Part shown: positions 19,134 to 36,620 of the stretch, one piece after another
Layout: the number at the start of each line of letters is the position of its first letter
How positions within the stretch are numbered: the stretch's first letter is position 1
Assembly: GCA_023823795.1 (NCBI GenBank)
Contig: CP085710.1
Coordinates: 2,258,001 to 2,322,000 of the forward strand
DNA: 64,000 bases
Source: Bacillus sp. F19
GTDB taxonomy: Bacteria; Bacillota; Bacilli; Bacillales; Bacillaceae
Direction of reading: 5' to 3'
Position numbers and translations under genes: made by a program
The notes under the pieces: generated by a model
What the model was told of the DNA's origin: nothing
What the model saw: the letters and a program-made list of their open reading frames with translations, nothing else
Database searches by the model: none

Positions 19134-19169
19134 ACGATCTTTAACAATCGGGCGCCTTTCTTGAATAGA
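19134..19169 (+). repeat. cassette-boundary repeat R1 (centre GGGCGC at 19150)
   Basis: Left arm ACGATCTTTAACAATC, centre GGGCGC (19150-19155), right arm CTTTCTTGAATAG. It is the left boundary of the duplicated ABM-gene unit: the second copy of the unit starts with the same GGGCGC at 35357 but has a different left arm. Confidence 0.75.
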
Positions 19170-19610
19170 GAAGGGCTCTTTTTGAAGGGATTATTAATCA
19201 TAAAAAGAAGATATAGAGTGAAAATATTCATTCTATAATTGGACACAGAAGGGGAGCTTTGATGATATTAGAAGCTGTTATGCTTCAAGTTAAAAAAGGT
19301 ATGGAACAGGAATATGAAGAAGCTTTTCGTAAGGCATCTAAAATTATTTCAGCAATGAAGGGCTATATATCCCACGAACTACAGCGTTGTATGAAAGCTG
19401 AGGGGAAATATTTGTTATTAGTAAGGTGGGAAACTTTAGAAGATCATACAGTTGGATTTAGACAATCAGACGAATATCAAGAATGGAAAAATCAACTCCA
19501 TCATTTTTATGAACCATTCCCGACAGTTGAACACTTTCAAAAAGTTGATCTTTCGTAAAAGTTTTACTTTACAAACGGTTGGCGTAAGGTGAGCATCTTC
19601 AACAAACGGG
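19150..19610 (+). repeat. duplicated 461-bp unit, copy 1 (ABM gene)
   Basis: This segment recurs at 35357-36599. Copy 2 carries a 779-bp IS3-type insertion plus a 3-bp target duplication. Apart from that I found one mismatch (A at 19250, G at 36239). Outside the unit the two loci are unrelated. Identity begins exactly at the GGG of centre R1 and ends at the GGG of the next centre (19608), where copy 1 has GGGCGC and copy 2 GGGGGC. Confidence 0.9.
19262..19558 (+). CDS. ABM-domain (antibiotic biosynthesis monooxygenase-like) protein, copy 1
   Basis: 98 residues from ATG 19262, with GGGGAG five bases upstream. The sequence (MILEAVMLQVKKGMEQEYEE..., GYISHELQRCMKAEGKYLLLVRWETLEDH, FRQSDEYQEWKNQLHHFYEPFP) is a single dimeric alpha/beta ABM barrel, with the conserved H in SHEL and W in VRWETLEDH. 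Members include heme-degrading and quinol monooxygenases as well as many of unknown activity. No heme-binding signature can be assigned with confidence. It is the only gene in a repeat-bounded unit and has an identical second copy at 36251-36547. Confidence 0.85.
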   Translation: MILEAVMLQVKKGMEQEYEEAFRKASKIISAMKGYISHELQRCMKAEGKYLLLVRWETLEDHTVGFRQSDEYQEWKNQLHHFYEPFPTVEHFQKVDLS

Positions 19611-19684
19611 CGCTTTTCTTGAATATCCTTGCAGCGTGGATGTTCCAGGACGATCTTCAACAATCGGGCAGCATTCCTGTAATG
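19593..19684 (+). repeat. repeats R2 and R3 with a 58-bp unit lacking a gene
   Basis: Centre R2 is GGGCGC at 19608 (left arm GCATCTTCAACAAAC, right arm TTTTCTTGAATATCC). Centre R3 is GGGCAG at 19666 (left arm ACGATCTTCAACAATC, right arm CATTCCTGTAATGA). The 58 bp from one centre to the next carry no ORF. A unit of the same length and near-identical sequence occurs at 23516-23573 and 27391-27448. Confidence 0.75.
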
Positions 19685-19788
19685 AAGAAAAATGAGGTTT
19701 GAACAAAAAAATAACCTCTTGGTATGATATGAGTGTCCTGAAGCGGGCTGCGAAAAGGACAAAACATATATACCAGGAGGCCATCAAT

Positions 19789-21075
19789 ATGAATTATAAC
19801 CAAAATGAAAAGATTGCTCAAATTACTTCTGAAACACTGATTATAGGTGTAGATATTGCGAAGTACAAGCATGTAGCTCGTGCTCAAGACTTTAGAGGCC
19901 TAGAGTTTGGTGCACCATGTCACTTTGAAAATACCAAATCACATTTTGATCTTTTTTTAGGCTGGATAAAACATTTGATGGAACAACAAGGCATGGATAA
20001 GGTGATTATTGGAATGGAGCCGACAGGTCATTATTGGCTCAACCTCGCTCATTTTCTGAAAGAAGAGGAGATTAAGTTTGTCGTGGTAAATCCTATGCAT
20101 GTGAAGAAGTCTAAAGAATTAGATGATAATTCTCCAACCAAAAATGATGTGAAGGACGCAAAAGTCATTGCACAGCTAGTCAAAGATGGAAGATATGCCG
20201 AACCTAATATTCCACAAGGAGTTTATGCAGAACTTCGTGTGGCAAGGAAAATACGCGATCTCTTATTTGTTGACTTACAAGCTGTGCAGGGGCAAATTCA
20301 TAACTGGTTAGATCGATATTTCCCTGAATTCTTAACAGTGTTTAAAGATTGGGAAGGAAAATCAGCACTACAATTATTAAAGTTAAATGTATTACCACAT
20401 GAGTTAGAGATAGTCTCGGAACAAGAGATCCTCATTCATCTCAGAAAAGCTGTAAAACGTGCGGTTGGACTCAGTAAAATTCAAGAACTTAAACGAGTAG
20501 CCAAAGACTCTATTGGTATTCGTGAAGGTTCAAGGATGGCTAAATTAGAGCTTCGCACTTTACTAGACAAGTATGAATTAATAAATGAAAAGTTCGAAGA
20601 ACTAGAATCTGATATTGATGGACTCCTTGAACGGATACCAGGTGTTCAACAAATGTTGGCCATCACAGGAATCGGCAAGGACACTGTAGCTGGCTTCTTT
20701 TCAGAAGTAGGGAATTTAAGTTACTATTCTCACCCTCGACAAATCATCAAGTTAGCTGGATTAAGCTTAAAGGAGAATACCTCTGGAAAGCACAAAGGGC
20801 AAACGAAGATTACAAAGAGAGGAAGGAAGACACTGAGGGCTCTCCTCTTCCGAGTAGCGATGCCTTTGGTAGCTAAGAACACTGCTTTTAAAGCTTTACA
20901 TGAGTATTTTACAACACGTAAAACAAATCCTCTAAAGAAAATGCAGTCTCTTATAGCGATATGTAATAAGCTGATACGAATTCTTTTTACGATTGGTACA
21001 AAACAATGTGAATTTAGTGAAGATAGAATGTTGAAGGATATTCCCCATATGGCACCATTACAGAAAGCAGCTTAG
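19789..21075 (+). CDS. IS110-family transposase
   Basis: 428 residues. ATG at 19789 follows AGGAGG; a longer frame from 19699 lacks an RBS. The N-terminal DEDD RuvC-like domain starts with IIGVDIAKYKHVA and includes GMEPTGHYW, VVVNPMHVKK and KNDVKDAKVIA. A coiled central part follows. The C-terminal Tnp-20 domain has IPGVQQMLAITGIGKDT, KLAGLSLKENTSGKHKGQT, which holds the candidate serine nucleophile, and KRGRKTLRALLF. Intact and probably functional. These enzymes recombine DNA under guidance of a noncoding RNA from the element. Confidence 0.93.
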   Translation: MNYNQNEKIAQITSETLIIGVDIAKYKHVARAQDFRGLEFGAPCHFENTKSHFDLFLGWIKHLMEQQGMDKVIIGMEPTGHYWLNLAHFLKEEEIKFVVVNPMHVKKSKELDDNSPTKNDVKDAKVIAQLVKDGRYAEPNIPQGVYAELRVARKIRDLLFVDLQAVQGQIHNWLDRYFPEFLTVFKDWEGKSALQLLKLNVLPHELEIVSEQEILIHLRKAVKRAVGLSKIQELKRVAKDSIGIREGSRMAKLELRTLLDKYELINEKFEELESDIDGLLERIPGVQQMLAITGIGKDTVAGFFSEVGNLSYYSHPRQIIKLAGLSLKENTSGKHKGQTKITKRGRKTLRALLFRVAMPLVAKNTAFKALHEYFTTRKTNPLKKMQSLIAICNKLIRILFTIGTKQCEFSEDRMLKDIPHMAPLQKAA

Positions 21076-21440
21076 AATTCATTTAGTTGGTTATTTATTT
21101 AGTTTTATTAGGTTTATTATTTTAGACATTTGAAGCACGGATTAGTCAGTAAAACAACAATACTACGGACTTTGATCCTGTCGGGCAGCATCACTGACAT
21201 CCACCTCATGGAAAGGTTGGACGAAGGAATTTTGGAGCATAGACTCTGTGAGACATGGGAGGGTTGACCTCCATGAGACATGTGGACATCCACCAGTGCA
21301 ACCATACTTTTACTAGGTAACCACTTTTTGGATAGGAGTGGTTAGGCAGTTAAGGACTTTTTTTCTCTGACACTCCAAAAATATCCTTATTTTCAACTTA
21401 CATCCATAGCTTTGATGTCTAATTAAAATAAACCATGATG
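21076..21440 (+). ncRNA. candidate bridge RNA region of the IS110 element
   Basis: The stretch after the transposase stop has higher GC and short complementary blocks (GGACATCCACC near 21280 with GGTTGGACG/GGTTGACC-type partners, CATGGAAAGGTTGG, GGGAGGGTTGACCTCC) and ends in a T-rich tract near 21358. IS1111-type elements encode their guide RNA at this place. The assignment rests on position and apparent secondary structure only. Confidence 0.35.
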
Positions 21441-21597
21441 AAATCTTAAGAAAAAGCTAGAAATCCAGAGTTATTCCTTTCTTTATAGAGGGAGGATTGT
21501 TGAATAAGCCTTTTAGTAATTGTAATTATTAGAAAAGTGAAACTTTTTAATATTGAATTACGTATTATAAATAATTTAATTATAACGGGGGTGTAAA

Positions 21598-21912
21598 ATG
21601 AAGAAGTACATTTTTTTTGTCTTATTAACATTGGTAATTGAGTCTTTATTAATTACTGGGACAATAGTTATTTGGGATACGCGTTTTCCAGAAACAATGT
21701 TCTTCGGTTCCTGTTTATTCATTTTCATTGCATTTTTACTAAGTTCTTCAGGAGATTTTTTATCTAAGAATTCTGAATACTCTGTTTTTGGGGCGGTGGC
21801 AGGAAGTTATCAACCCAAGCGTGAAGAAACTTATTTGATTATTAGTCCATTTTTAGTTGGTTCTATTTTGTTTCTCATCAGCTATTTTATAATATATTAT
21901 TTTATTTATTGA
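21598..21912 (+). CDS. small membrane protein, unknown function
   Basis: 104 residues from ATG 21598 with GGGGGTG upstream. Two N-terminal TM segments (YIFFVLLTLVIESLLITGTIVIW and MFFGSCLFIFIAFLLSSSG), a soluble stretch (SEYSVFGAVAGSYQPKREETY) and a C-terminal TM segment (FLVGSILFLISYFIIYYFIY). The family is unknown to me. It is the only gene between the IS110 element and repeat R4, so it behaves like a unit of the repeat-bounded array. Confidence 0.65.
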   Translation: MKKYIFFVLLTLVIESLLITGTIVIWDTRFPETMFFGSCLFIFIAFLLSSSGDFLSKNSEYSVFGAVAGSYQPKREETYLIISPFLVGSILFLISYFIIYYFIY

Positions 21913-21970
21913 ATGTTTTCCAGCAAAAAGATGCACTTAAATGCAACAGTAATAAACCTTATTCGTAGTG

Positions 21971-22004
21971 TGTTACTCCATTATAGGGGGCGTTAATCGA
22001 AGAT
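21971..22004 (+). repeat. cassette-boundary repeat R4 (centre GGGGGC at 21986)
   Basis: Left arm GTGTTACTCCATTATA, centre GGGGGC (21986-21991), right arm GTTAATCGAAGATGG. The arms are more diverged than in other copies, but the centre and the spacing behind a gene are kept. Confidence 0.55.
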
Positions 22005-22078
22005 GGAATAGTACATTTCTTGTTGAAGTTCCTAAACTTTAGAAAATATTATATAGATGCCACCAGGAGGGAAATGCA

Positions 22079-22264
22079 TTGAAGTATAACGATAAAGTTA
22101 AAATAATATTTGTTTTTTTATTATTTAGTTCCGTCGGCACTTTTACAATTGGTGAACTTGGACTATTTATAGGGATTATTATTGGTACCCTATATATGAT
22201 ACTTATTGAGTTATCTAAAATTTCTTCTTATTTAAAGGGTATTTCATCTAAAGATATTTCGTGA
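22079..22264 (+). CDS. small membrane protein, 61 aa
   Basis: TTG start at 22079, seven bases behind AGGAGGG. Two hydrophobic segments (IIFVFLLFSSVGTFTIGELG and LFIGIIIGTLYMILIEL) separated by a short turn, then SKISSYLKGISSKDIS. Unknown family. It is the only gene between centres R4 and R5 (309 bp apart) and shows no sign of being co-transcribed with its neighbours by design. Confidence 0.55.
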   Translation: MKYNDKVKIIFVFLLFSSVGTFTIGELGLFIGIIIGTLYMILIELSKISSYLKGISSKDIS

Positions 22265-22279
22265 AAATAGTTTTTAATG

Positions 22280-22318
22280 TGTTATTCCACAATCGGGGGC
22301 GATTGCTTAACAAAGTGT
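22280..22318 (+). repeat. cassette-boundary repeat R5 (centre GGGGGC at 22295)
   Basis: Left arm GTTATTCCACAATC, centre GGGGGC (22295-22300), right arm GATTGCTTAACAAAG. CAATC and GATTG pair across the centre, giving a small stem-loop with GGGGGC in the loop. Confidence 0.7.
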
Positions 22319-22406
22319 CGTCTCTTCTTACTGAGTAAAGGGACAGGTTAGTTCAAGAAGGACTATGATAAGATAGAGTCAAAATATCTTATAAAGGACG
22401 ACTTTT

Positions 22407-22703
22407 ATGGATAAAAGATACTTTGAACTAGAAAATTACAAGGGTCCCCATATTCATATAGATAATTGGGAACCTTTTTGGGCAGAGGCGATTGCTTGGA
22501 AACGGTTAGACGGAAGCTGGGATGTTATGTTTTATGATTTCCAGAGTCAAGAAGAATTTGGCTTACTCTTCGGAACAAAAGAATACTATAAAGATGAAGT
22601 TGGAGGAGTTTTTCTCTTTGATACTCAAACGGACGAGGAGTGTACAGAAAAATTCATTAAATGGGTTCATTCTAACTTACTACCTTTAAGAACAAATAAG
22701 TGA
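22407..22703 (+). CDS. hypothetical protein, 98 aa
   Basis: 98 residues from ATG 22407, with AAAGGACG upstream. Soluble, with many aromatic and acidic residues (HIHIDNWEPFWAEAIAWKRLDGSWDVMFYDF, FGTKEYYKDEVGGVFLFD). No motif that I recognise. It is the sole gene between centres R5 and R6, a 428-bp unit, and reads in the same direction as its neighbours. Confidence 0.6.
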   Translation: MDKRYFELENYKGPHIHIDNWEPFWAEAIAWKRLDGSWDVMFYDFQSQEEFGLLFGTKEYYKDEVGGVFLFDTQTDEECTEKFIKWVHSNLLPLRTNK

Positions 22704-22707
22704 TTAT

Positions 22708-22740
22708 CCTTGTTGCACTAACGGGTAGCGTTTGTTTAAG
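22708..22740 (+). repeat. cassette-boundary repeat R6 (centre GGGTAGC at 22723)
   Basis: Left arm TTGTTGCACTAAC, centre GGGTAGC, right arm GTTTGTTTAAGAAG. A variant with one extra base in the centre. It lies 20 bp behind the stop of the 22407 gene. Confidence 0.5.
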
Positions 22741-22787
22741 AAGAATTGTGAATTGAGTGAACAATTTTAGGACTGAATCCAAGTTGT

Positions 22788-22832
22788 AGCTATTCAATTA
22801 AAGGGGGCGATTGCTTAACAAAGAGTCGCCCT
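22788..22832 (+). repeat. cassette-boundary repeat R7 (centre GGGGGC at 22803)
   Basis: Left arm TATTCAATTAAA, centre GGGGGC (22803-22808), right arm GATTGCTTAACAAAG followed by AGTCGCCC. GGGCGA and TCGCCC can pair into a second hairpin. Together with R6 it encloses an 80-bp interval without a gene. Confidence 0.65.
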
Positions 22833-22912
22833 TACCTCAGAAAGCTATATAAATTTAAGAAAAGCGATTTAATGATTATGCTAATGAAAATAACAAAAAA
22901 GGTGAATTTTTG

Positions 22913-23467
22913 ATGGAACAATCAGATCCTTTAATAATAAAAATTGAGAATCAAAGATGGCTTTACAATGATGAAGAAGACTTATGTTCTCACGGTGAAA
23001 TTATCTTGAGCGTTAATGGAACTACCATTACACAATCTTATATAGACGAAGAATGGGGAATTAGTGAGTCTGCTTTGGCATTGTTAAGAACCCTTGATAA
23101 AGATTATATTTGTGACCCCGATAATGAGGAAGGTCTAATCCTCCACGGATGCGGTACAATTTTAATGATGGGTTGCCCTATTTCAATACATTGGACCGTA
23201 AAACACATTGACGACCAAGTGATTTTATCGGATTTTGTTAAAGTTACTACAACCAACCCAAAAACGGGAAGTATATATTATCCTGGACTAGAAATCAAAT
23301 TAAGCAAAAACGAATATAAAAACCAAATTGTTTCGTTTGCCCTTCAAGCTAAAAAACTCTTTGATAATTCGAAAAAAAAGCTGATTTCTGATGACTTTGA
23401 TAAAGAAATGTATGAAGAATTTTGGGATGAATACATCCAGCTATTAAAAAGTAATTCGCATTGGTAA
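22913..23467 (+). CDS. hypothetical protein, 184 aa
   Basis: 184 residues from ATG 22913 (TTG at 22910 is possible) with AAAGGTG upstream. Soluble and acidic: IIKIENQRWLYNDEEDLCSHG, WGISESALALLRTLDKDY, HGCGTILMMGCPISIHWTVKHID, then a charged helical C-terminus. The cysteines in HGCG and MGC could be structural. I do not recognise the family. It is the only gene between centres R7 and R8 (713 bp apart). Confidence 0.65.
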   Translation: MEQSDPLIIKIENQRWLYNDEEDLCSHGEIILSVNGTTITQSYIDEEWGISESALALLRTLDKDYICDPDNEEGLILHGCGTILMMGCPISIHWTVKHIDDQVILSDFVKVTTTNPKTGSIYYPGLEIKLSKNEYKNQIVSFALQAKKLFDNSKKKLISDDFDKEMYEEFWDEYIQLLKSNSHW

Positions 23468-23500
23468 AGTTCTTATTATTGGCGACTATAATTATCAAAC

Positions 23501-23581
23501 TCTTATTCAACAATCGGGGGCTTATCTGGAATATCAATGCAGCGTGGATGTTCTAGGACGATCTTCAACAATCGGGCGCGT
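23501..23581 (+). repeat. repeats R8 and R9 with a 58-bp unit lacking a gene
   Basis: Centre R8 GGGGGC at 23516 (left arm CTTATTCAACAATC, right arm TTATCTGGAATATC) and centre R9 GGGCGC at 23574 (left arm ACGATCTTCAACAATC). The right arm of R9 is replaced by the group II intron-like RNA, which begins at 23582 after two bases. Confidence 0.75.
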
Positions 23582-24597
23582 GTGCGGCCGAGCTTAGGTC
23601 GTATCATATAACGGGTGGGATTCCCGTCGAGTAAGAACTAGCCATTCGCTCGTAGCGAGTCTTGGAGGACTAAAGGTAACTTTAGTCTTTAAGCGTAGAC
23701 AGTTAGGTGGAGCAGCCGTCAAGGCTGAAAATCTGATGGAGTGAAAGTCTCCTGTCATCAATTGGTCGATTCAGATGAATAGCATATCCAATGCGTGGGG
23801 AGGTAACAAACCACGTTCTGCTTGGAAGTAGAAGTCACGGCGGCCTGTTCTACACAGAGGGAACAGGGTCGGAACAGCCTGCGTGGCGAGCAAACACAGA
23901 GGCCGGAAGGCTTTAACGAATACTGCAGTCCCGAAATCTACGCCCCTCATTAGAAGCTGTTGGAGGGATTGTTGCTTAGCGTCGACCTTTGTCTAACGGG
24001 GGAAGACCGATGTCCTACAGGAAGAAACGATCAAAAGCACTGTAGGAGCAGCCGGGATATGGGTTCTAGCATTTGTGGAAAGATTTTCAGAGATAACGAC
24101 GGGAAGGTCCTACTTCAAATTGAGAAGGTATTTATCAATAAAGACTTTCCATATAAGAGGCAAAATAGAAAATGGGAAGATGATTTAGGACTGGCGCATG
24201 AGGTCGTAGTAGCTATGAGGGAAGAGTAATGTCTTCTTAAGTATAAGTAAATTATACTCCTAGTCAAGGTAACACCTCTGATAGGGCAAAGGGCCTCTGG
24301 GCACTTGGAAAGTTCGAACATTATAGACACTGAGCTATATAGTATGTTCAGAACTAGCTTACTAGTAAACCTACAAACGATGGGGGAATATGTGTACCGA
24401 CATTTAAGCCTGCGGTTGTATGGGAAGGCTTGTATGTGATTACCAAGGTCAGAACCGGACTCGGGAAATCCGACCGTCCGGGATCGTAGGGGGGCTACAG
24501 GAAACGTGATTCAATCGAATAAGCGCGCCTGTTTTCTACCCGACGGCGGGCCGAAAGCCAACCGGTTGAAGGGATTGAGCTCCATAATTGATTGTAA
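23582..24597 (+). ncRNA. group II intron-like RNA without a reverse transcriptase gene (3' end approximate)
   Basis: Starts GTGCGGCCGAGC, the GUGYG 5' end of group II introns, followed by stem segments GGGTGGGATTCCCG and GTCGAGTAAGAACTAGCC and long GC-rich structured sequence typical of domain I. A hairpin near 24454-24482 (lower stem CCGGAC/GTCCGG, GAAA loop, AC bulge) could be domain V. No reverse-transcriptase motif is present; the longest frame (23960-24229) is not RT-like. So it is ORF-less or has lost its ORF. A second copy of the first 65 bp, with three mismatches, lies at 28341-28405, also directly behind a repeat centre. The identification of domains is by eye. Confidence 0.6.
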
Positions 24598-24891
24598 ATC
24601 GAGAGGGCTGATGCTTTACGCAATTTAGAACTGGGAGATGCAGATAATTATTGGGCAGTCTTTGAACCATACTTACAAGAAGTACCTGTTCCTTGCAGTT
24701 TGAACGACGATCTCAAAGACATCTATAAAGATGTAAAAGAAGGAATTCTTTTGTATCAGAAAGATGAACGCTTAGAAGCCATTTGGCATTGGAAGTTCAA
24801 CTTTGAAATTCATTGGGGTAGACACGCTTTGAATGCAATGCGTGCTTTACATTCAAATATTCTTAAGCAAACGGAGGCATTTCTTGAATAA
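24598..24891 (+). pseudogene. C-terminal part of a DUF5063-type protein
   Basis: The frame is open from 24598 to the stop at 24891, but it has no proper start and its 5' end abuts the intron-like RNA. Product: DALRNLELGDADNYWAVFEP, SLNDDLKDIYKDVKEGILLY, AIWHWKFNFEIHWGRHALNA, MRALHS. This matches the C-terminal half of DUF5063 proteins as I know them. The N-terminal half is not found upstream of the intron, so the gene was truncated instead of being split by the intron. Confidence 0.6.
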
Positions 24892-24981
24892 AGTTATGCC
24901 CCTCATACAATTACATTACTTTAGTGAAATCCAATAATCAACTTGTCAATCTAAACGTAAAAGTTTTGAGTTCACTGCTTC

Positions 24982-27051: not shown

Positions 27052-27372
27052 ATGAATGTCACTGAATTTCAACAATGGGTCAAGGAGTATTATGAAAGTA
27101 GGGGCTGGTCTGAGTTAGACATTTTTATTCGGATTGGCTTTTTAGCTGAAGAAACTGGCGAAGTTGCGCGAGCTATAAGAGCCCTTGAGATAGGCAGGGA
27201 TAGGCCTGATGAAGTAAAGGTATCTTATGAGGAAAATAAACAAGAGTTAACTGAAGAATTAGGAGATGTATTAGGTAATTTAATTGTGATTGCAAACAAG
27301 TACAATATCCCTTTAGAAGAAGTGTTTCAGTCACATAAAAAGAAACTGTCAGAGCGTTATTCTAATGATTAA
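27052..27372 (+). CDS. MazG-like nucleotide pyrophosphohydrolase
   Basis: 106 residues, ATG 27052 behind TTGGAGG. All-alpha NTP-PPase fold with metal ligands in FLAEETGEVARAI (ExxE) and EELGDVLGNLIVIA (ExxD), plus the C-terminal helix VFQSHKKKLSERY. Such small house-cleaning enzymes hydrolyse non-canonical or excess NTPs to NMP and PPi. Its stop is followed 18 bp later by repeat R10, so it looks like another single-gene unit, though its left boundary is the ntdB terminator and not a repeat. Confidence 0.85.
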   Translation: MNVTEFQQWVKEYYESRGWSELDIFIRIGFLAEETGEVARAIRALEIGRDRPDEVKVSYEENKQELTEELGDVLGNLIVIANKYNIPLEEVFQSHKKKLSERYSND

Positions 27373-27379
27373 AGCCTTT

Positions 27380-27470
27380 ATTCAACAATAGGGGGCTTTT
27401 CTGGAATATCCATTCAGTGCGGATGTTCCAGGACGATCTTCAACAATCGGGCCAGATAATTGAATAAGCT
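27380..27470 (+). repeat. repeats R10 and R11 with a 58-bp unit lacking a gene
   Basis: Centre R10 GGGGGC at 27391 (left arm TTTATTCAACAATA, right arm TTTTCTGGAATATCC). Centre R11 GGGCCA at 27449 (left arm ACGATCTTCAACAATC, right arm GATAATTGAATAAGC). Third copy of the 58-bp empty unit. Confidence 0.75.
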
Positions 27471-27525
27471 TCCCCTTACTTTTACAGTATGATAGAGGGA
27501 AATAAAATAAGTCTCTGGAGGTATT

Positions 27526-28275
27526 ATGGATAGAAACAGATATTCAGCAATAGCCCATCAAAGCCATACTTTTTATAATCCGATTAATCCATCAAAGATA
27601 GACAAAGTTATTGAGTTACTTGCTTTAAAAGATAATGACAAAGTAATAGATATAGGTGCTGGGAAAGGTGAAATTCTTCTTCGGATTATTGAAAGATATA
27701 GATCTAAATGTATTGCTATCGAAAAATATGGTGATTTCACGGAACAACTTCAAGTAAATGCTAAAAATAGAGGGGTTTTAAATAATATTGAAATCATTAC
27801 AGAAGATGCTAAAGTAGCAATTAAGACAATAAATGAGCAGTTTGATGTAGCGATTTGTATTGGTTCAACTCACGCATTAGGCGGATTGCATGAAACGTTG
27901 GATACGCTGAGGAAGTGTGTAAAAAAGGGTGGATATGTGCTCATCGGTGAAGGCTACTGGAAGCAGCAGCCAAGTTACGAATATTTGGAGGCGCTCGGAG
28001 GAGCGGAAGAATCCGAATTACGAAGCCACTTCGAGAATGTGAAGGTTGGCGAAAAACTAGGCCTAATTCCACTCTGGTCTTACACTACTAACGACGATGA
28101 ATGGGATGAATATGAGTGGCTTTATGCTATGTCCATTGAGAATTATTGCTACGAACATCCTGATGATCCGGATTGCGATGCAATGTTACAAAAGATCCGA
28201 ACTTGGAGAAGTACATATCTGAAATGGGGCAGAGATACCCTTGGGTTTGGGATATATCTTTTTAGGAATATGTAA
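27526..28275 (+). CDS. class I SAM-dependent methyltransferase
   Basis: 249 residues, ATG 27526 with TGGAGG upstream. Rossmann motif I is VIDIGAGKGEIL, the acidic residue of motif II is in AIEKYGD, and the post-I region is IITEDAKVAI with FDVAICIGSTHALGG. YVLIGEGYW is the next strand. The C-terminal part (WSYTTNDDEWDEYEW..., HPDDPDCDAMLQK) is acidic and probably determines substrate choice, which is unknown. It is the sole gene between centres R11 and R12 (839 bp). Confidence 0.82.
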   Translation: MDRNRYSAIAHQSHTFYNPINPSKIDKVIELLALKDNDKVIDIGAGKGEILLRIIERYRSKCIAIEKYGDFTEQLQVNAKNRGVLNNIEIITEDAKVAIKTINEQFDVAICIGSTHALGGLHETLDTLRKCVKKGGYVLIGEGYWKQQPSYEYLEALGGAEESELRSHFENVKVGEKLGLIPLWSYTTNDDEWDEYEWLYAMSIENYCYEHPDDPDCDAMLQKIRTWRSTYLKWGRDTLGFGIYLFRNM

Positions 28276-28340
28276 AATTCAATTAAAGGACGCTATTCTT
28301 CGATAAGACAACATAAATGATCTTCAACAATCGGGGGCGA
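28274..28340 (+). repeat. repeats R12 and R13 with a 45-bp interval lacking a gene
   Basis: Centre R12 GGACGC at 28288 (left arm AATTCAATTAAA, right arm TATTCTTCGATAAG). Centre R13 GGGGGC at 28333 (left arm ATGATCTTCAACAATC). After R13 two bases (GA) precede a second group II intron-like 5' end. Confidence 0.65.
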
Positions 28341-28405
28341 GTGCGGCTGAGCCTAGGTCGTATCATATAGCGGGTGGGATTCCCGTCGAGTAAGAACTAG
28401 CCATT
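28341..28405 (+). ncRNA. 5' fragment of the group II intron-like RNA
   Basis: 65 bp that match 23582-23646 except for three substitutions, ending at AGCCATT where a truncated IS3-type element begins. It shows that the same RNA had inserted behind a second repeat centre before being cut off. Confidence 0.7.
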
Positions 28406-30731: not shown

Positions 30732-30849
30732 GATAAAACCACCTTTTGATTTTTCATAAGGTAAATTGAAATACTTAAAACTCTGTCTTCATTTAATAGT
30801 AGAATATTCTAGATAGATATATTGAAAGTGTATATGATTCTCCTTAAAA

Positions 30850-30941: not shown

Positions 30942-31155
30942 CGTATAACAGAAGGAGGAATATAGCAAAATAAATTAGTACAAGCTAAATAATTTGAAAA
31001 TTTTAATTAAAATAAGAATTGCGATAACATCAAATGGATTTTTTAGTATTTTTCGATTATAAAGATTATTTTAAATATAATTAAGAAAAATGTTTAAATG
31101 CTTTTTTTAAGAAACTTAATCATTCCAGATCAATAGACTTCTAGGAGGAAATCAT

Positions 31156-32505
31156 ATGACTAATAAAATATCATTTTCATTTATAGTTGCAGTTGGTTTT
31201 ATGCTATTCGCTTTATTCTTTGGCGCAGGAAATTTAATTTTCCCTGCAATGCTTGGTCAATCAGCGGGAACGAATGTGTGGTCAGCTAATGCCGGATTTG
31301 TCGTTACTGGAGTTGGCTTACCTTTGCTTGGTGTAATTGCATTAGGAATATCAGGAAAAAGTGATTTACAATCATTAGCAAGCCGTGTACATCCTATTTT
31401 CGGTATCATCTTTACTGTTGCTCTTTATTTATCAATAGGACCTTTGTTTGCAATCCCAAGAACAGGTACTGTTTCATTTGAAATCGGGGTGAAGCCTTTT
31501 ATATCTGAAGAATACAGTGTTATTGGTTTAATAATCTTTACCATTATCTTTTTTGGAATTACAGCCTTTTTTTCATTAAAGTCTTCTAAGATTGTTGATA
31601 TTGTTGGAAAATTCTTAACTCCACTTTTATTACTTTTTATTGCGATTCTTATCATAACAGCATTTTTTAATCCTATTGGGCAATTTCAAGCGCCTGCTGA
31701 AAACTATATGAATAATGCCTTCTTTAAAGGATTCCAAGAGGGATATCTTACAATGGATGCCCTTGCAGCCTTTGTTTTTGGAATTATTGTTATCAATGCG
31801 GTAAAAGAAAAGGGTGCCTCTACTAAGAAGGAAATTATGATCGCTGTTACCAAAGCAGGAGTAATTGCAGCGGCACTTCTAGGAATCATTTACACATCTC
31901 TTTCCTTTATTGGGGCTTCAAGTGTAGAAGGTCTTGGACTTTTAGATAATGGGGGAGCCGTTCTTTCAGGTGCATCAAATCATTACTTCGGTTCATTTGG
32001 CGGGATTCTGCTTAGCTTAATTGTTTTTGGAGCTTGTTTAACAACTAGTATTGGACTTATCACTTCTTGTTCTTCATATTTCTCTAAAGTGATGCCAAGT
32101 ATTTCTTACAATAAATTCGTCATTATTTTCTCTGTTTTTAGTGCTGGTTTAGCCAACTTCGGCTTAAATGAATTAATTGCTGTCTCTGTTCCAGTTTTAG
32201 TAGCCATTTATCCATTAGCTATCTGTTTAATGGCTTTAACATTTTTACATCCATTATTTAAGGGTAAAAAAGAGGTTTATCAAGGAAGTATGTTATTAAC
32301 TCTAATTGTAGCTATATTTGACGGATTAAACGCAGCGGGAATTACCATTGCTCCAATCAATGACCTATTAGCCACTGTCCTTCCATTGTATGAAGTAGGC
32401 TTAGGCTGGATCGTACCAGCTATTATCGGCGGGGTTTTAGGATATGTATTCGGGATGGTGATAAAAAGCAAATCCCCTTCTGCTCAAGTTGAGAAATATA
32501 TCTAA
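31156..32505 (+). CDS. brnQ: branched-chain amino acid transporter, BrnQ (LIVCS family)
   Basis: 449 residues, ATG 31156 behind AGGAGG. Twelve TM segments, opening with FSFIVAVGFMLFALFFGAGNLIFPAMLGQSAG, the diagnostic FGAGNLIFP motif of LIVCS carriers, and GPLFAIPRTGTVSFE. It imports Leu, Ile and Val with Na+ or H+. The 200-bp region upstream holds the GntR-type operator, and a strong terminator follows, so it is a single-gene transcript. The regulator beside it suggests control by an amino acid or its keto acid. Confidence 0.93.
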   Translation: MTNKISFSFIVAVGFMLFALFFGAGNLIFPAMLGQSAGTNVWSANAGFVVTGVGLPLLGVIALGISGKSDLQSLASRVHPIFGIIFTVALYLSIGPLFAIPRTGTVSFEIGVKPFISEEYSVIGLIIFTIIFFGITAFFSLKSSKIVDIVGKFLTPLLLLFIAILIITAFFNPIGQFQAPAENYMNNAFFKGFQEGYLTMDALAAFVFGIIVINAVKEKGASTKKEIMIAVTKAGVIAAALLGIIYTSLSFIGASSVEGLGLLDNGGAVLSGASNHYFGSFGGILLSLIVFGACLTTSIGLITSCSSYFSKVMPSISYNKFVIIFSVFSAGLANFGLNELIAVSVPVLVAIYPLAICLMALTFLHPLFKGKKEVYQGSMLLTLIVAIFDGLNAAGITIAPINDLLATVLPLYEVGLGWIVPAIIGGVLGYVFGMVIKSKSPSAQVEKYI

Positions 32506-32513
32506 ATTGTAAT

Positions 32514-32554
32514 AAAAAGGTCAGCCAGTTATATGAAACTGGCTGACCTTTTTT
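32514..32554 (+). terminator. intrinsic terminator of brnQ
   Basis: AAAAAGGTCAGCCAGTT pairs perfectly with AACTGGCTGACCTTTTT around ATATGA, followed by further T residues. Confidence 0.92.
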
Positions 32555-32666
32555 CGGTTTAGCTTTTGTTAAAAGGTATTGTTGTTTTGTGTTTTTACAG
32601 TAAAAGAGCGTTGATTAATGGCTTAAATTTAGTAATGATTGAACCAGTTAAAGAATAGAAAATATT

Positions 32667-32894
32667 GTGTTATATGCAGGAATTATGGTCGATATTATTG
32701 TGCCTGTTTTCGGACGAAAGTATTTAATTAAAGCCCCGAACAATATAGCTCATTTATTAGAACGTTTTGCATTATTTACATTTTTCCTTTTTGGAGTATC
32801 GGTCGTCAGCACCCTTTCTGTACAGGTGTGCAAAATAGCACTTAAAAATATGCGGAATAAATCTTCTAAAGTGGCAACAGCAGGTTATTTTTAG
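32667..32894 (+). pseudogene. fragment of an LtrA-like (low temperature requirement A) membrane protein
   Basis: A 75-codon frame reads LYAGIMVDIIVPVFGRKYLIK, then NNIAHLLERFALFTFFLFGVSVV, which matches the HLxERFGLF...LGES region of LtrA proteins. The full protein has about 380 residues, so only one loop and one or two TM segments remain. The tail is not family-like. Repeat R14 follows 78 bp downstream. Confidence 0.55.
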
Positions 32895-32956
32895 CAGTAT
32901 AAATGTCTGTTTATAAAATCTAATTTATGAACTTAAAAATAGATTGCTAAAAAAGT

Positions 32957-32995
32957 GCTTTGTTCAACAATCGGGCCAGATTGTGGAAGATCATT
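32957..32995 (+). repeat. cassette-boundary repeat R14 (centre GGGCCA at 32973)
   Basis: TTCAACAATC, centre GGGCCA (32973-32978), GATTGTGGAAGATC. ACAATC and GATTGT pair perfectly; this copy shows best that the element is an inverted repeat with the centre in the loop. Confidence 0.7.
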
Positions 32996-33212
32996 TTAAA
33001 AGAAAATTCGATATTTGTCGGTGAGATTTTGAAGGATTGTACTTAAGCTAAAGGACAGAATAGTTGAAGAAAGAAATCATTTATTTATATTTTGTCCATC
33101 AACTTTTCATTGTAATGTAATCCTTCTTTCTATCGTTTTATAAGATTAAAATGGAATTATTACATCAATTGGGTTCTAACTTCTCCAAAAGTAGCAAGAT
33201 AAGCGAATAAAA

Positions 33213-33250
33213 AAAGCAGTATCACCGCTATAAAAGTGTTGGTACTGCTA
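33213..33250 (-). terminator. terminator of the azoR operon (minus strand)
   Basis: On the minus strand AGCAGTACCAACAC pairs with GTGATACTGCT-type sequence (G-U pairs allowed) and is followed by TTTTTTTATT. It lies 26 bp beyond the azoR stop. Confidence 0.7.
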
Positions 33251-33275
33251 TATTGAGTGACAAGTTTTTTATTAA

Positions 33276-33902
33276 TTAGAACGTACTTGCTACTTTAACA
33301 GCTTTTTCAAGCCCTGCAGCAATAATTTCTTCTGCTTTATCTGGGAATTGATTGTGACCTTCAATCACTACTTTCTCTATATTTTTTACACCGAAGAAGC
33401 TCATCATACATGCTACATATTTAACAGCCATTTCTACTTCAGCTTTTGGTCCTTCAGAATATACACCGCCACTTGCGTTTAATAATACAATTTTCTTATC
33501 TCCAATCAGACCTACTGGACCTTCTGGCGTATATTTAAATGTTTTGCCCGCGCGGTTTAAATAATCAATATATGTGTGCAGTACAGCCGGAATTGTTAAG
33601 TTCCATAATGGGAATCCAAACACAACTTTATCAGCTGCAAGGAATTGTTCTAAATATTTATCAGCAACAGTTACTGCTTTTGCTTCTGCTGCTGTTAAAT
33701 CAAGTCCTCTACTAGCCTTAAATGTACCGTTAATCATATCTACTCCTACATATGGCAATTCTTCCTTGTATAAATCAAGTTCTACCACTGTATCATTTGG
33801 ATGTGATTCTTTATAGCTTGCTAAAAAAGCCTCATATAATTTCACACTCACCGCTTGGTTTGCGGGGCGATTGTTTGCTTTTACAAATAAAACTGTTGTC
33901 AT
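33276..33902 (-). CDS. azoR: FMN-dependent NADH-azoreductase
   Basis: 208 residues, ATG at 33902 with AGGAGG upstream. Flavodoxin-like fold. FGFPLWNLTIPAVLHTYIDYLNRAGKTFKYT is the FMN and dimer-interface signature of AzoR, and LNASGGVYS is the second flavin loop. It reduces azo compounds and quinones by two-electron transfer and commonly protects against thiol-reactive quinones. It lies 71 bp downstream of the DUF3238 gene on the same strand, and both are divergent from a MarR regulator, which matches the quinone/diamide-sensing MarR modules of Bacillus. Confidence 0.92.
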   Translation of the reverse strand: MTTVLFVKANNRPANQAVSVKLYEAFLASYKESHPNDTVVELDLYKEELPYVGVDMINGTFKASRGLDLTAAEAKAVTVADKYLEQFLAADKVVFGFPLWNLTIPAVLHTYIDYLNRAGKTFKYTPEGPVGLIGDKKIVLLNASGGVYSEGPKAEVEMAVKYVACMMSFFGVKNIEKVVIEGHNQFPDKAEEIIAAGLEKAVKVASTF

Positions 33903-33973
33903 TCTCTTTTCCTCCTGTTACTCACTCTTATGTTGTTATATATTTATTCACTAAAAAGGGAATCCTATTATCT

Positions 33974-34558
33974 TTACAATATCTTTTTAAAACTATATTC
34001 CATATCTCCACCTAGAGCTTCAGCTGTATCACCAGTTTCTCTGAAGTCATGTGTATGAATCTTTTCAAACGGACCAAAGTTTACTTGCTTATAAAATTCA
34101 AAACAAGGGAATCCGTCATGTGCACCTTGAATATCGATAGTACCATCTTTTTTGACATGTACAGTTAATAGATAATCAACGGGAGGTGCATATACATTTA
34201 ATGGGTTACTAGCACTAGCACTCATTTGAAATTTGACGTCATCTGACCTCCATACAACATCAGTGCACAAAATACCTTCCGTACTAGCTTTTCCTGTTTT
34301 TTTATTAACGGAACCATCAGGAGTTGTTATTCTTTCTGTTGTTATGCCAGTATTCGCATATGTGAAGATTTCTTTTTTATAAAAATCTACAACTACTTCT
34401 TGTTCAATTCTGGAACGCATAGCGTTTACAGCATATGGTGTAAATTCACGTGAGTCACCTTCGAATTGAATCACGTTTCCTGTTTGAGTATCCTTCTTAG
34501 GTTCAGTCCAAGACATTGGAATAAATACACTTGCTCTAACTTTAACGATATTAGTCAT
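33974..34558 (-). CDS. DUF3238-type protein
   Basis: 194 residues, ATG at 34558 with GGAGGG upstream. VKVRASVFIPMSW, FEGDSREFTPYAV and a C-terminal GPFEKIHTHDFRETG block match DUF3238 as I remember it, a family of unknown function common in Bacillus. No signal peptide is visible. It is the first gene behind the MarR-controlled divergent promoter and is followed by azoR, so it may belong to the same stress response. Confidence 0.7.
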   Translation of the reverse strand: MTNIVKVRASVFIPMSWTEPKKDTQTGNVIQFEGDSREFTPYAVNAMRSRIEQEVVVDFYKKEIFTYANTGITTERITTPDGSVNKKTGKASTEGILCTDVVWRSDDVKFQMSASASNPLNVYAPPVDYLLTVHVKKDGTIDIQGAHDGFPCFEFYKQVNFGPFEKIHTHDFRETGDTAEALGGDMEYSFKKIL

Positions 34559-34622
34559 GAGAACCCTCCATAATGTATTAATTTTGTTTCGGTGAATCCA
34601 ATTTCTTTTATAATTGAACTGT

Positions 34623-34692
34623 GGTCAACTTGATTGACTACATTGTGTATAGTACAATGGTCTTCAAATAAAGTCAACCTAATTGACTTTAT
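34623..34692. promoter_or_regulatory. overlapping divergent promoters with two MarR-type operators
   Basis: Minus-strand promoter: TTGACT (complement of 34672-34677), 17-bp spacer, TACTAT (complement of 34649-34654). Plus-strand promoter: TTGATT (34630-34635), 17-bp spacer, TACAAT (34653-34658). Two palindromes built from GTCAA/TTGAC lie on them: 34625-34638 (GTCAACTTGATTGAC type) and 34671-34690 (AAGTCAA...TTGACTT). One bound dimer at each site would shut both directions. Confidence 0.8.
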
Positions 34693-34709
34693 TTAAGGAG
34701 GTTTTATGT

Positions 34710-35183
34710 ATGAATCATGAAGTATTTAGTGAATTGGATCTTACATCACTTTTATCATTATCCTTTAGTACATCAATTAATGAATTACATGACAGATTGA
34801 GTGAATTGGGATTTGGAGATATTAGACCTGCACATGGTTTTATGTTTAAATGCATTACTCCCAATGGAGCAACAGGTATAGAACTAGCCGAATATTTAGG
34901 AATTACAAAGCAAGCTGTGAGTAAAATGGTGGATTATCTTGAGAAAAGTGGCTATGTAATGCGCAAAGCTCATCCCACTGATAAGAGAGGGAAAATTATT
35001 GTTTTGACCGAACGAGGTTGGTTAGTAGTGAAAGCAAAAGAGAAGATACTAACTGAGATTGAGCAACGTTGGATTGAAAACATAGGTGCTGAACGCCTGC
35101 AAATGCTCAAAGAAGATTTAACAAAATTAGTTTATGAAGAAAATGAAGATAAACTATCATCGAGGTTAAGACCTGTCTGGTAA
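34710..35183 (+). CDS. MarR-family regulator
   Basis: 157 residues. ATG at 34710 is preferred because AAGGAGG lies 8 bases upstream; an in-frame TTG at 34683 is inside the operator. The winged helix is TGIELAEYLGITKQAVSKMVDYLEKSGYVMRKAHPTDKRGKIIVLTERG, with the D-x-R-G wing. One cysteine is visible in FMFKCITPNG, which could serve redox sensing. It is divergent from DUF3238-azoR with operator palindromes over both promoters, and is therefore most likely their repressor and self-regulated. Confidence 0.9.
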   Translation: MNHEVFSELDLTSLLSLSFSTSINELHDRLSELGFGDIRPAHGFMFKCITPNGATGIELAEYLGITKQAVSKMVDYLEKSGYVMRKAHPTDKRGKIIVLTERGWLVVKAKEKILTEIEQRWIENIGAERLQMLKEDLTKLVYEENEDKLSSRLRPVW

Positions 35184-35217
35184 TTATAGAATTTATAAAG
35201 GGAACTTTTAATCGTGC

Positions 35218-35252
35218 TTAAATTCGTACTAACAGTACAGCATTCCTGTAAT
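35218..35252 (+). repeat. possible repeat R15a (variant centre near 35227)
   Basis: TTCGTACTAAC, then AGTACAGC, then ATTCCTGTAATGA. The right arm is the same as that of R3 (19666), and CTAAC before the centre also occurs at R6. A diverged copy. Confidence 0.4.
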
Positions 35253-35274
35253 GATATAAATTAGCAGCAAGGTT

Positions 35275-35312
35275 TGTGAAGGATTGTACGGGAGCGTTAG
35301 TTCAAGAAAAAC
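35275..35312 (+). repeat. possible repeat R15b (centre GGGAGC at 35290)
   Basis: Left arm GAAGGATTGTAC, centre GGGAGC, right arm GTTAGTTCAAGAAA. The left arm GAAGGATTGTAC recurs near 33032. A diverged copy; with R16 it encloses 67 bp without a gene. Confidence 0.45.
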
Positions 35313-35341
35313 AAGCTAAATTGCATTTGTGTTTCTATTTT

Positions 35342-35373
35342 CGTTGTTCCATTAAAGGGCGCCTTTCTTGAAT
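35342..35373 (+). repeat. cassette-boundary repeat R16 (centre GGGCGC at 35357)
   Basis: Left arm GTTGTTCCATTAAA, centre GGGCGC (35357-35362), right arm CTTTCTTGAAT, then interrupted by an IS3-type element at 35374. Centre and right arm equal those of R1, the left arm does not. This is the left boundary of copy 2 of the ABM unit. Confidence 0.75.
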
Positions 35374-35458
35374 TGGAGAGACCCAGTTAAGTGAGACAAG
35401 GAAAAAGCACCCCCTGAAACGTATTAGTAAACTAAACGATTTTGGAGGTGTTTTTCTT

Positions 35459-35782
35459 ATGGGGAAAATAGTTCATTACCCTGAAGAAATAAAGTGGGAA
35501 GCAGTTCAATTAAGACAAAAAGGATTAACTTATAAAATCATTCAAGAAAAGTTAAATATAAAAAATAAAAGACAAATTCAAAACTGGATGAAATGGTATG
35601 AAAATGGAGAAACTTATCGGTTTTCTCAAGGGGTGGGAAAACAATATTCCTATGGTAAAGGAATGGAAGAATTAAGTGAAGTGGAGCAGTTAAAAAAGAG
35701 AAATAAACAATTAAGTATCCAAGTAGAAATTCTAAAAAAGTACCAAGAAATCGAAAGGAGTTGGTACCAAAAGTTATTCTAG
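35459..35782 (+). CDS. IS3-type transposase OrfA
   Basis: 107 residues, ATG 35459 with TTGGAGG upstream. Helix-turn-helix EIKWEAVQLRQKGLTYKIIQEKLNIKNKRQIQNWMKWYE and a C-terminal coiled coil (EVEQLKKRNKQLSIQVEILKKY). It binds the element ends. OrfB overlaps its end by 22 bp. Because OrfB is deleted, OrfA alone may at most act as a repressor. Confidence 0.8.
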   Translation: MGKIVHYPEEIKWEAVQLRQKGLTYKIIQEKLNIKNKRQIQNWMKWYENGETYRFSQGVGKQYSYGKGMEELSEVEQLKKRNKQLSIQVEILKKYQEIERSWYQKLF

Positions 35783-36115
35783 AACTCGTAAAAATTTTGA
35801 AATATCCCATTCAATTAATATGTGAATGTATGGGAGTTGCTAGGTCTAGCTACTATCGTTGGTTAAAGAAAGGTATTAAGTTAATAACGAAGTTGGAAAA
35901 CAAGATAAAAGAAATTTGTATCAAACATAAGTATCTCATTGGTCACCGAACAGTGAAAGCTTGGCTTTTAAGAGAATACTCAGCCACGAGAGGATCTTAC
36001 AAACCCTATTGTAGTGGAAAAAGTAAGAAAATTCATCTATTATTACAATACAATACGACTTCAGGCAAAATTAAACTACCTGTCCCCGATAGAATTTCGG
36101 GAACAGGCAGCATAG
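35761..36115 (+). pseudogene. IS3-type transposase OrfB with internal deletion
   Basis: The N-terminal part (VILELVKILKYPIQLICECMG, ARSSYYRWLKKG, GHRTVKAWLLREY) is in one frame to about 35975. The C-terminal end, NPIVVEKVRKFIYYYNTIRL and LNYLSPIEFREQAA, follows in another frame and stops at 36113-36115. The rve core with its DDE residues is absent. Confidence 0.8.
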
Positions 36116-36250
36116 GTGTTTTTTTCATGTCTCATTTCTGTGGGCCAGTTCAAATAGAGAAGGGCTCTTTTTGAAGGGATTATTAATCATAAAAAGAAGA
36201 TATAGAGTGAAAATATTCATTCTATAATTGGACACAGAGGGGGAGCTTTG

Positions 36251-36547
36251 ATGATATTAGAAGCTGTTATGCTTCAAGTTAAAAAAGGTATGGAACAGGA
36301 ATATGAAGAAGCTTTTCGTAAGGCATCTAAAATTATTTCAGCAATGAAGGGCTATATATCCCACGAACTACAGCGTTGTATGAAAGCTGAGGGGAAATAT
36401 TTGTTATTAGTAAGGTGGGAAACTTTAGAAGATCATACAGTTGGATTTAGACAATCAGACGAATATCAAGAATGGAAAAATCAACTCCATCATTTTTATG
36501 AACCATTCCCGACAGTTGAACACTTTCAAAAAGTTGATCTTTCGTAA
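36251..36547 (+). CDS. ABM-domain protein, copy 2
   Basis: Identical in sequence to 19262-19558, with the same RBS context (here GGGGGAG because of the single A/G difference). As in copy 1, it encodes a 98-residue dimeric ABM barrel of unknown activity. It is the only gene of its repeat-bounded unit. Perfect conservation of the coding part implies a recent duplication or ongoing gene conversion. Confidence 0.85.
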   Translation: MILEAVMLQVKKGMEQEYEEAFRKASKIISAMKGYISHELQRCMKAEGKYLLLVRWETLEDHTVGFRQSDEYQEWKNQLHHFYEPFPTVEHFQKVDLS

Positions 36548-36581
36548 AAGTTTTACTTTACAAACGGTTGGCGTAAGGTGA

Positions 36582-36620
36582 GCATCTTCAACAAACGGGG
36601 GCGATTGCTGAACAATGAGC
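36582..36620 (+). repeat. cassette-boundary repeat R17 (centre GGGGGC at 36597)
   Basis: Left arm GCATCTTCAACAAAC (equal to R2), centre GGGGGC, right arm GATTGCTGAACAATG, followed by AGCAGTC. TTCAACAAAC/GATTGCTGAA can pair at 8 of 10 positions. Right boundary of copy 2 of the ABM unit. Confidence 0.75.

Follow-up and report, generated by a model that had tools for sequence, protein, structure and literature searches.

A 64,000-nucleotide stretch of the Bacillus sp. F19 genome (contig C1, positions 2258001-2322000; hereafter the window) carries, between 19.15 and 36.6 kb, an array of short inverted repeats with small genes or nothing between them. The question is whether these repeats are terminators, transposing elements or boundaries at which genes are exchanged and, if the last, which enzyme exchanges them. 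An initial annotation, made from the letters of the window, had described about 17 copies of a left arm, a 6-base centre and a variable right arm and had proposed cassette-type shuffling with exchange at the centre. We followed the element through the 5.59-Mb F19 genome (G000; two contigs of 5.085 and 0.507 Mb) and through genomes of its genus, family and order. The best explanation, which we regard as likely, is that this array is one of many in a site-specific recombination system run by a clade of recombinases of 280 amino acids (aa). We read the genus as Metabacillus, on the ground that the site coordinates in one congener (G045) are those of plasmid pBY2G20 of Metabacillus dongyingensis.

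The site and exchange at its centre

A short pattern with at most one mismatch matched the whole F19 genome 77 times (37 on the plus and 40 on the minus strand), and its reversed form did not match at all. A site matrix (lowest accepted score 13.0) scanned over 1.23 Mb, in 69 pieces from F19 and three congeners, gave 1518 raw and 766 unique hits, against 4 raw hits in the reversed-sequence control; these pieces were taken around sites, and their densities are not genome averages. The site is a 32-bp dyad, TTATTCAACAATC-GGGNNN-GATTGTTGAATAA, with the left arm, centre and variable right arm arranged as first described. In the 654 sites with a centre starting GGG, one and the same 13-bp motif forms the left and the right arm (consensus, read outward, GATTGTTGAATAA); the matrices of the two sides correlate at 0.97, falling to at most 0.41 once shifted by 1-6 positions. 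The innermost part of the arm is GATTGTTGAAT, around the 6-bp overlap GGGNNN. The centre starts with GGG in 656 of the 766 sites, and its last three bases, by which we name the centre types, are GGC (233), CGC (162), CCA (122), CAG (107) or TGC (38), the rest being rarer; centres in the window also include GGAGGC, GGACAG and GGACGC. Training of the matrix on both strands of palindromic hits favours symmetric arms, and the case for symmetry therefore leans also on 109 sites picked by left arm and centre alone, in which the right arm still reads [GT][AT]TT...GAATAA. Across 119 sites the arm-6-arm layout is ungapped.

Positions of the two arms pair in 62.7% of cases against 33-42% when the arms are slid, yet arms shuffled between sites pair equally well (61.9 +- 0.9%), and the left and right arms fit each other within one site no better than across sites, in the 109-site set as well. 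Absence of covariation points to a double-stranded, protein-bound dyad rather than a selected hairpin or attC; the site is a double-stranded dyad without a conserved fold and is not attC. Thus the hairpin of the initial annotation keeps its dyad symmetry and loses its fold. Dyad symmetry, the place of the repeats after plus-strand genes and a weak GGCGA...TCGCC stem seen by eye in a 46-bp unit would also be expected of transcription terminators or RNA hairpins of vertically inherited genes. However, the arms do not covary, the same dyad precedes genes and bounds units without an open reading frame (ORF), homologous cassettes lie in differing surroundings and no syntenic order was kept in the stretches compared, and we consider this explanation extremely improbable.

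Evidence for exchange comes from 25 pairs of homologous cassettes (coverage at least 85%, identity at least 80%). The 26 bp just past the arm differed on both sides in 18 pairs, were common on one side in 5 and on both sides in 2 (at a 70% identity cut, with one differing pair at 0.69), and the stretch common to the neighbours in these 7 pairs was often a 45-58-bp unit. At 20-120 bp out, 24 of the 25 pairs differed on both sides; at 65-145 bp out both sides were unrelated (0.27-0.42) in 24 pairs, the remaining one reaching 0.55 upstream. The identity profile of the 24 pairs that differ at 20-120 bp is high inside the cassette and near the background of unrelated sites outside it, and the step is the hexamer. 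Additionally, the last three centre bases were kept at both cassette ends (0.83-1.0, against 0.43-0.45 in random site pairs), which is the trace expected from a tyrosine recombinase that needs identity of the overlap.

A second test was independent of the cassette definition, with high-scoring segment pairs of median multiplicity above 3 (mobile elements) dropped first. Here 69 of 323 homology-block ends had a site no more than 20 bp away in each of the two copies, compared with 0.3 +- 0.6 for shifted sites (maximum 3 in 200 shifts), and 105 had one in either copy, compared with 17 +- 5. At one orthologous locus (F19 C1:430816, G045 C1:458239) firm homology begins 55-88 bp to the right of the site and there is none to the left. 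The F19 genome is 93.7-98.8% identical to G045 and G050 at two core loci; these genomes are closely related, so that cassette identities of 97-99% need not mean distant transfer, although they do mean movement. These comparisons, in which junctions fall at the centre, indicate that site-specific exchange very probably occurs there, in keeping with the shuffling first proposed.

Two other readings bear on the same data. Sites, cassettes and 45-58-bp units are all repeated, and the 7 pairs with a common short adjacent stretch are what RecA homologous recombination between dispersed repeats with another role might leave. Junction identity in most pairs, though, barely exceeds the site and steps at the centre, the centre type is kept at both ends and the arms of one site do not covary, making this reading very unlikely. 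Short dispersed palindromes, and 45-bp ORF-less units in many places, recall repetitive extragenic palindromes with their associated tyrosine transposases (REP/RAYT) or miniature inverted-repeat transposable elements that transpose as units. That conserved blocks stop mid-palindrome, that the two halves of the palindrome belong to different cassettes and that there is one site orientation per replichore or replicon leaves such elements scarcely credible.

Cassettes in the window and in related genomes

Scanned with the matrix, the window has 19 sites, of which 18 lie between 19,152 and 36,599. The remaining one, an isolated site at 364, had not been listed in the initial annotation, and further sites occur genome-wide. 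The features of the array are as follows (site positions in brackets are midpoints, and scores are matrix scores).

349..380, +, isolated site outside the array, centre GGGGGC (364), score 24.9
19137..19168, +, site, centre GGGCGC (19152), score 30.5
19153..19610, +, 458-bp ABM cassette, gene 19259-19558 (Pfam ABM)
19595..19626, +, site, centre GGGCGC (19610), score 37.5
19611..19668, +, 58-bp ORF-less cassette
19653..19671, +, left arm and GGGCAG centre of a site (19668) split by an element of the IS110 family of insertion sequences (IS)
19672..21494, +, IS110-family element in the site centre, transposase 19699-21075 (Pfam DEDD_Tnp_IS110), ends approximate
about 21495..21507, +, right arm of the IS110-split site
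21598..21912, +, cassette ORF of 104 aa (a membrane protein in the initial annotation), no Pfam family at E 0.001
21973..22004, +, site, centre GGGGGC (21988), score 28.4
22079..22264, +, cassette ORF of 61 aa, no Pfam family at E 0.001
22282..22313, +, site, centre GGGGGC (22297), score 38.6
22328..22359, +, site, centre GGACAG (22343), end of a 46-bp ORF-less unit, score 19.0
22407..22703, +, cassette ORF of 98 aa, no Pfam family at E 0.001
22790..22821, +, site, centre GGGGGC (22805), score 31.8
22806..23518, +, 713-bp cassette, ORF 22910-23467 (185 aa)
23503..23534, +, site, centre GGGGGC (23518), score 36.4
23561..23592, +, site, centre GGGCGC (23576); 2 nt past the centre a group II intron begins (Rfam RF02005 at 23618-23734)
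24860..24891, +, site, centre GGAGGC (24875), score 28.5
27052..27372, +, MazG-family gene (Pfam MazG), final gene ahead of site 27393
27378..27409, +, site, centre GGGGGC (27393), start of a 58-bp ORF-less unit, score 36.4
27436..27467, +, site, centre GGGCCA (27451), score 38.4
27452..28335, +, module of an 839-bp methyltransferase cassette (27526-28275) and a 45-bp unit, common to G045 and G050
28275..28306, +, site, centre GGACGC (28290), score 20.0
28320..28351, +, site, centre GGGGGC (28335), score 24.4, followed by an apparently truncated group II intron start
32960..32991, +, site, centre GGGCCA (32975), score 39.1
33040..33071, +, site, centre GGACAG (33055), score 20.2
35344..35375, +, site, centre GGGCGC (35359), score 27.3
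36153..36599, +, second ABM cassette copy, gene 36248-36547, 99.6% identical to 19164-19613, its 5' border not a matrix-accepted site
36584..36615, +, site, centre GGGGGC (36599), last in the array, score 38.3

The array is a tidy run from 19 to 23.5 kb (ABM and the 104-, 61-, 98- and 185-aa ORFs) and consists of larger units at 24-27.4 and 28.3-36 kb, with a HAD-type hydrolase, a MazG-type gene and an IS3-type transposase among their genes. The ABM cassette occurs at least three times in the F19 genome with three different downstream neighbours, its near-identical copies (98.6-99.8%) lying at 36.15-36.60 kb of the window and at C1:3190460-3190918. Homologues of the 713-bp cassette in G045 and G050 have differing neighbours on both sides, and the stretch 21529-21942 around the 104-aa ORF is 93% identical to a stretch of G045. 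The methyltransferase module is 97.1% and 98.7% identical to its counterparts in G045 and G050, in different surroundings; the homology blocks span 27439/27440 to 28344, and hence their ends are the two centres. Between the window and 143 kb of G045 plus 199 kb of G050, nothing longer than 120 bp was common apart from cassettes, mobile elements and two short pieces. A syntenic comparison for the window found the right-flank gene in only 1 of 8 genus genomes at E 1e-60.

Across the four genomes, consecutive same-strand sites delimit 610 units of 35-4000 bp (median 464 bp). In 301 distinct units of 250-2000 bp the main ORF lay on the site strand in 224, on the opposite strand in 36 and was lacking in 41. 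The sites mostly enclose a single same-strand gene or, in ORF-less units, none. Matched by eye to the annotation, units of pBY2G20 mostly hold one gene each and encode GNAT, NUDIX, proline dehydrogenase, glyoxalase, metG and lipid II flippase Amj products along with many hypothetical proteins. A catA-type chloramphenicol acetyltransferase is annotated at 296766-297413 of this plasmid, in a larger unit of its array. Contig C17 of G049 has a long series of GGC-to-GGC one-gene units, and among gene-size units in general 103 of 365 have ends of the same type, compared with 74.9 +- 6.5 after shuffling.

The lengths of ORF-less units are sharply fixed, at 45 (n=82), 46 (n=51), 58 (n=20), 93 (n=14) and 68 bp (n=12). 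Their ends are typed as well: the 45-bp units run from CGC to GGC (33 of 82) or from CAG to CCA (35 of 82), the 46-57-bp units from GGC to CAG (34 of 58) and the 58-bp units from GGC to CGC (11 of 20). These fixed-length units may be composite or accessory sites.

Mobile elements also target the sites. An IS110-family element sits in GGGCAG centres, where all 9 left ends found come directly after a left arm and GGGCA, and all 11 right ends found stand in front of a right arm; it is possibly a guide-RNA-directed IS that chooses one centre type. Its insertions were seen at window 19672-21494, at loci L025 and L023 and at loci in G045, G049 and G050. Group II introns start two bases past GGG[CGT]GC in all 8 starts found (window 23583 and 28342, and six others). 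Elements associated with integron or dif-module sites are known (excerpts of PMC7923331 and PMC10132070).

A recombinase carried by the arrays

The initial annotation had no recombinase in view. The F19 genome holds 19 tyrosine recombinase domain matches, and one of these, a protein of 280 aa at C1:3179435-3180274, lies inside an array and is a candidate for the enzyme. It matches PF00589 at E 7.2e-40, and R138, H229, R232, H255 and Y264, which we take to be the catalytic residues of tyrosine recombinases, are invariant in a five-row alignment (A2). It passes NF040815 (XerA/integron integrase; 225.8 bits, cut-off 220), as do the host XerD (254.4) and XerC (231.9), and falls below the cut-off of the XerD model (209.9 vs 329.6). 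The closest solved relative by sequence is 4a8e, named XerC-like (E 1.6e-34).

Of 166 relatives, a family scan retained 80, which come from Bacillus, Neobacillus, Sutcliffiella, Lysinibacillus, Fictibacillus, Rossellomorea, Sporosarcina and Virgibacillus, among other genera. Scanned with the matrix from four genomes (loci L153 and L164 come from a training genome), 76 of the 80 loci had sites, 595 in total as opposed to 2 in reversed sequence. In group A (46 loci) the sites run with the gene (317 of 327) and in group B (34 loci) against it (261 of 268). A site lay within 300 bp on at least one side at 35 of 46 group A and 22 of 34 group B loci (57 of 80; chance 12-16% per side), and on both sides at 12 and 6 loci (18 of 80; chance 2-3%). 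In a tree of 38 recombinases picked from the 80, plus that of F19 (L185, L196 and L210, with stops, left out; 36 genes in the clade) and 11 other recombinases (L051, L139 and L143, which gave no usable frame, left out), groups A and B form one clade (support 100/100). This clade stands separate from XerC, XerD and XerS, and group B is a clade inside it. The gene in group B (L199-L232) is inverted relative to its array, apparently once in history.

Sites were likewise found at 11 of the 16 loci in a first set of relatives. In the sample of 397 genomes of the order, all 80 genomes with a recombinase match at E <= 1e-75 had site hits (median 11), while the other 317 had a median of 5, with 45 zeros (Mann-Whitney p 8e-11, not corrected for phylogeny); the cut was our choice, and 1e-100 gave the same picture. 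On these observations, the 280-aa Xer-like recombinase is probably the main enzyme of the exchange, and it seems itself to travel as a cassette.

The mechanism that we propose can be set out as follows. A cassette spans centre to centre, its 5' end bearing the right half of a site and its 3' end the left half, and exchange takes place inside the 6-bp overlap between sites of the same centre type. Single cassettes or several in a row, frequently together with a short unit, can thereby leave, enter or swap with their orientation kept, as the comparisons show, although the biochemistry is our inference. The enzyme would likely be the distinct 280-aa Xer/XerA-like clade, its presumed activity resting on the adjacency of its gene to the sites, and arrays would persist after loss of that gene, like integron-less attC clusters.

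A number of observations weigh against this mechanism or this enzyme. No excision product or circle was seen, and 254 of the 323 homology-block ends lay away from sites in one or both copies. Unlike centre types stand at the two ends of 262 of 365 gene cassettes, which therefore cannot leave alone by exchange between like centres; they would move only with type-restoring short units or by double exchange, and the short neighbours common to homologous pairs fit such co-movement with short units. Sites were lacking at 5 of the 16 first-set loci (four relatives of 38-42% identity and one fragment) and at 4 of the 46 group A loci, and among the 15 other tyrosine recombinase loci in the F19 genome 6 had one or two sites, some of them weak. 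In the order, 94 of the 317 genomes without a recombinase match have at least 10 site hits, and G214, one of 97 genomes in which a match reaches E <= 1e-60, has none. The recombinase occurs in only 3 of 8 genus genomes, broken in one and intact in two, and is absent from G050, the most site-rich of the eight; either the arrays outlive the gene, it would seem, or another enzyme acts on them too. Moreover, a gene that is itself a cassette adjoins sites whatever its role, and so the recombinase could be a passenger.

Since the recombinase is rare in the genus and absent from G050, the Xer enzymes stay in contention: host XerC/XerD (CodV/RipX) or a plasmid XerS would move the cassettes, the sites would be Bacillales dif modules and the array recombinase their passenger. 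The layout of dif is the same arm-6-arm, in F19 ACTGCCTATAA-TATATA-TTATGTAAACT at C1:2486815, and the outer arm TGTTRAAT resembles the E. coli XerD arm. Yet this dif scores -35.8 with the site matrix, far from the lowest accepted site, and the arms are one motif, unlike the unequal arms of XerC and XerD. Matches of XerC and XerD type (typed by size and score) are present in all 8 genus genomes, and arrays exist without an array-borne recombinase; on the other side, no sites lie within about 1.5 kb of 8 XerD-, 8 XerC- and 2 XerS-type genes (typed by size or score, some by model or annotation), and the sites run in one direction rather than alternating. The XerS gene is confirmed on the large replicons of F19 and G045, and XerS-sized matches occur in the array-rich G046, G049 and G050 and are not among the matches listed for the array-poor G047, G048 and G051. 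The CGC-class right arm, TTTTCTTGAATAA, is similar to TTTTCTTGAAA, which forms the right half of difSL, the XerS site of streptococci, but the central region of difSL is 11 bp as against 6 here (excerpt of PMC5357621). On balance we find it doubtful that the Xer enzymes move the cassettes, with enough in favour of the idea for it to be kept in mind.

Plasmid XerS (L046, L146) was ranked lower as the enzyme, as it has no sites nearby and a conserved motif before it mismatches the matrix, and recombinases of the L138 and L044 types were set aside for having no sites nearby. The XerS-type genes lie at pBY2G20 128455-129576 and at C2:426424 of F19. The motif TTATTATGTAAAC is conserved about 50-65 bp before them on these large replicons and is perhaps the resolution site of the XerS-type recombinase itself.

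Known systems and spread of the sites

The typed sites and the 280-aa clade share much with integrons and clusters of attC sites lacking integron-integrases. Both have arrays of mostly one-gene, one-orientation cassettes, ORF-less cassettes, a tyrosine recombinase, arrays without the enzyme gene and group II introns at sites, and arrays of mobile single-gene cassettes were found here as in integrons. Unlike integrons, the present system has a typed 6-bp overlap, a double-stranded dyad, half-sites at both cassette ends and an enzyme gene that lies among the sites. The 280-aa recombinase scores well under the integron integrase models (TIGR02249, 106.5 bits against a cut-off of 265; NF011946, 68.1 against 435), and the arms, which do not covary, give no folded attC-type site with conserved structure. 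The system works like an integron and is not one. Firmicutes are said to harbour integrons only extremely rarely, and the reasons are termed unclear (excerpt of PMC9024848).

The dif or pdif modules of Acinetobacter are also similar, in that arm-6-arm sites bound gene modules chained into islands (excerpts of PMC12907356 and PMC6449649) and are sought by IS elements (excerpt of PMC10132070). An arm-6-arm tyrosine recombinase site is likewise what we found, with the identity step within 6 bp. Those modules rely on host XerCD and inversely oriented sites (excerpt of PMC6449649), whereas here the sites are in direct order, one arm motif unlike the host dif flanks GC-rich typed centres and the recombinase clade is separate; neither host-type arms nor inverse orientation of adjacent sites was found. 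The single and double Xer systems (XerA, XerC, XerD, XerS and XerH) share the recombinase family, and with PF00589 and an invariant R, H, R, H and Y the 280-aa protein is a simple Xer/XerA-like tyrosine recombinase. It differs from them in forming a separate clade and in having hundreds of gene-bounding sites instead of one dif per replicon.

Among the papers listed on cassettes, integron-like systems and tyrosine recombinases, from Bacillus to Bacillota and with preprints and most subscription journals outside the scope, none described such a system judging by its title or the opening of its abstract, and a search for the site letters met matches in two unrelated papers only. We take the make-up of the system to be new, and its principle, a tyrosine recombinase shuffling cassettes, is common to integrons and dif modules. 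We lean, with somewhat less assurance than for the array itself, towards the view that Bacillales own a widespread equivalent of the integron, with typed double-stranded sites matched like dominoes, a cassette-borne recombinase clade and no fixed platform. If true, an integron-like mode of existence has evolved repeatedly, here with a double-stranded site and not a folded strand, and gene turnover in Bacillales would have a genome-wide source. The site model lets cassette arrays be annotated where genomes show scattered hypothetical genes.

A 16-base pattern matched all 8 genus genomes (71, 60, 25, 6, 16, 38, 99 and 8 matches, G050 being the richest with 99) and 42 of 81 family genomes, those eight included. 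Its exact form was found in 45 of 397 genomes of the order and is too strict for other genera, so the order was scanned (E <= 0.1) with a profile built from sequence alone on 119 sites of many genera. This profile gave at least one site hit in 352 of the 397 genomes, with about 0.1 chance hits expected per genome; hits saturate near 17 per genome, and single hits mean little. The Bacillaceae cassette system first suggested is supported, and site-like sequences reach far beyond one genome. With a 151-bp query, a plasmid search hit pBY2G20 in 17 places and, weakly, Peribacillus asahii, and a phage collection returned 0 matches.

Sites show a strand bias. In F19 contig C1 they number 51 plus and 15 minus below 2.5 Mb and 14 plus and 86 minus above, with dif at 2.487 Mb; in G045 C1 the counts are 117 plus and 2 minus below 2.5 Mb and 29 minus and 1 plus above 3 Mb, in G045 C2 69 plus and 2 minus and in G049 C17 57 minus and 1 plus. 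Site orientation tracks the contig half in F19, G045, G049 and G050, as if replication direction set it, the position of the origin being assumed. The orientation is strictest in G045, where it holds for 146 of 149 sites on C1.

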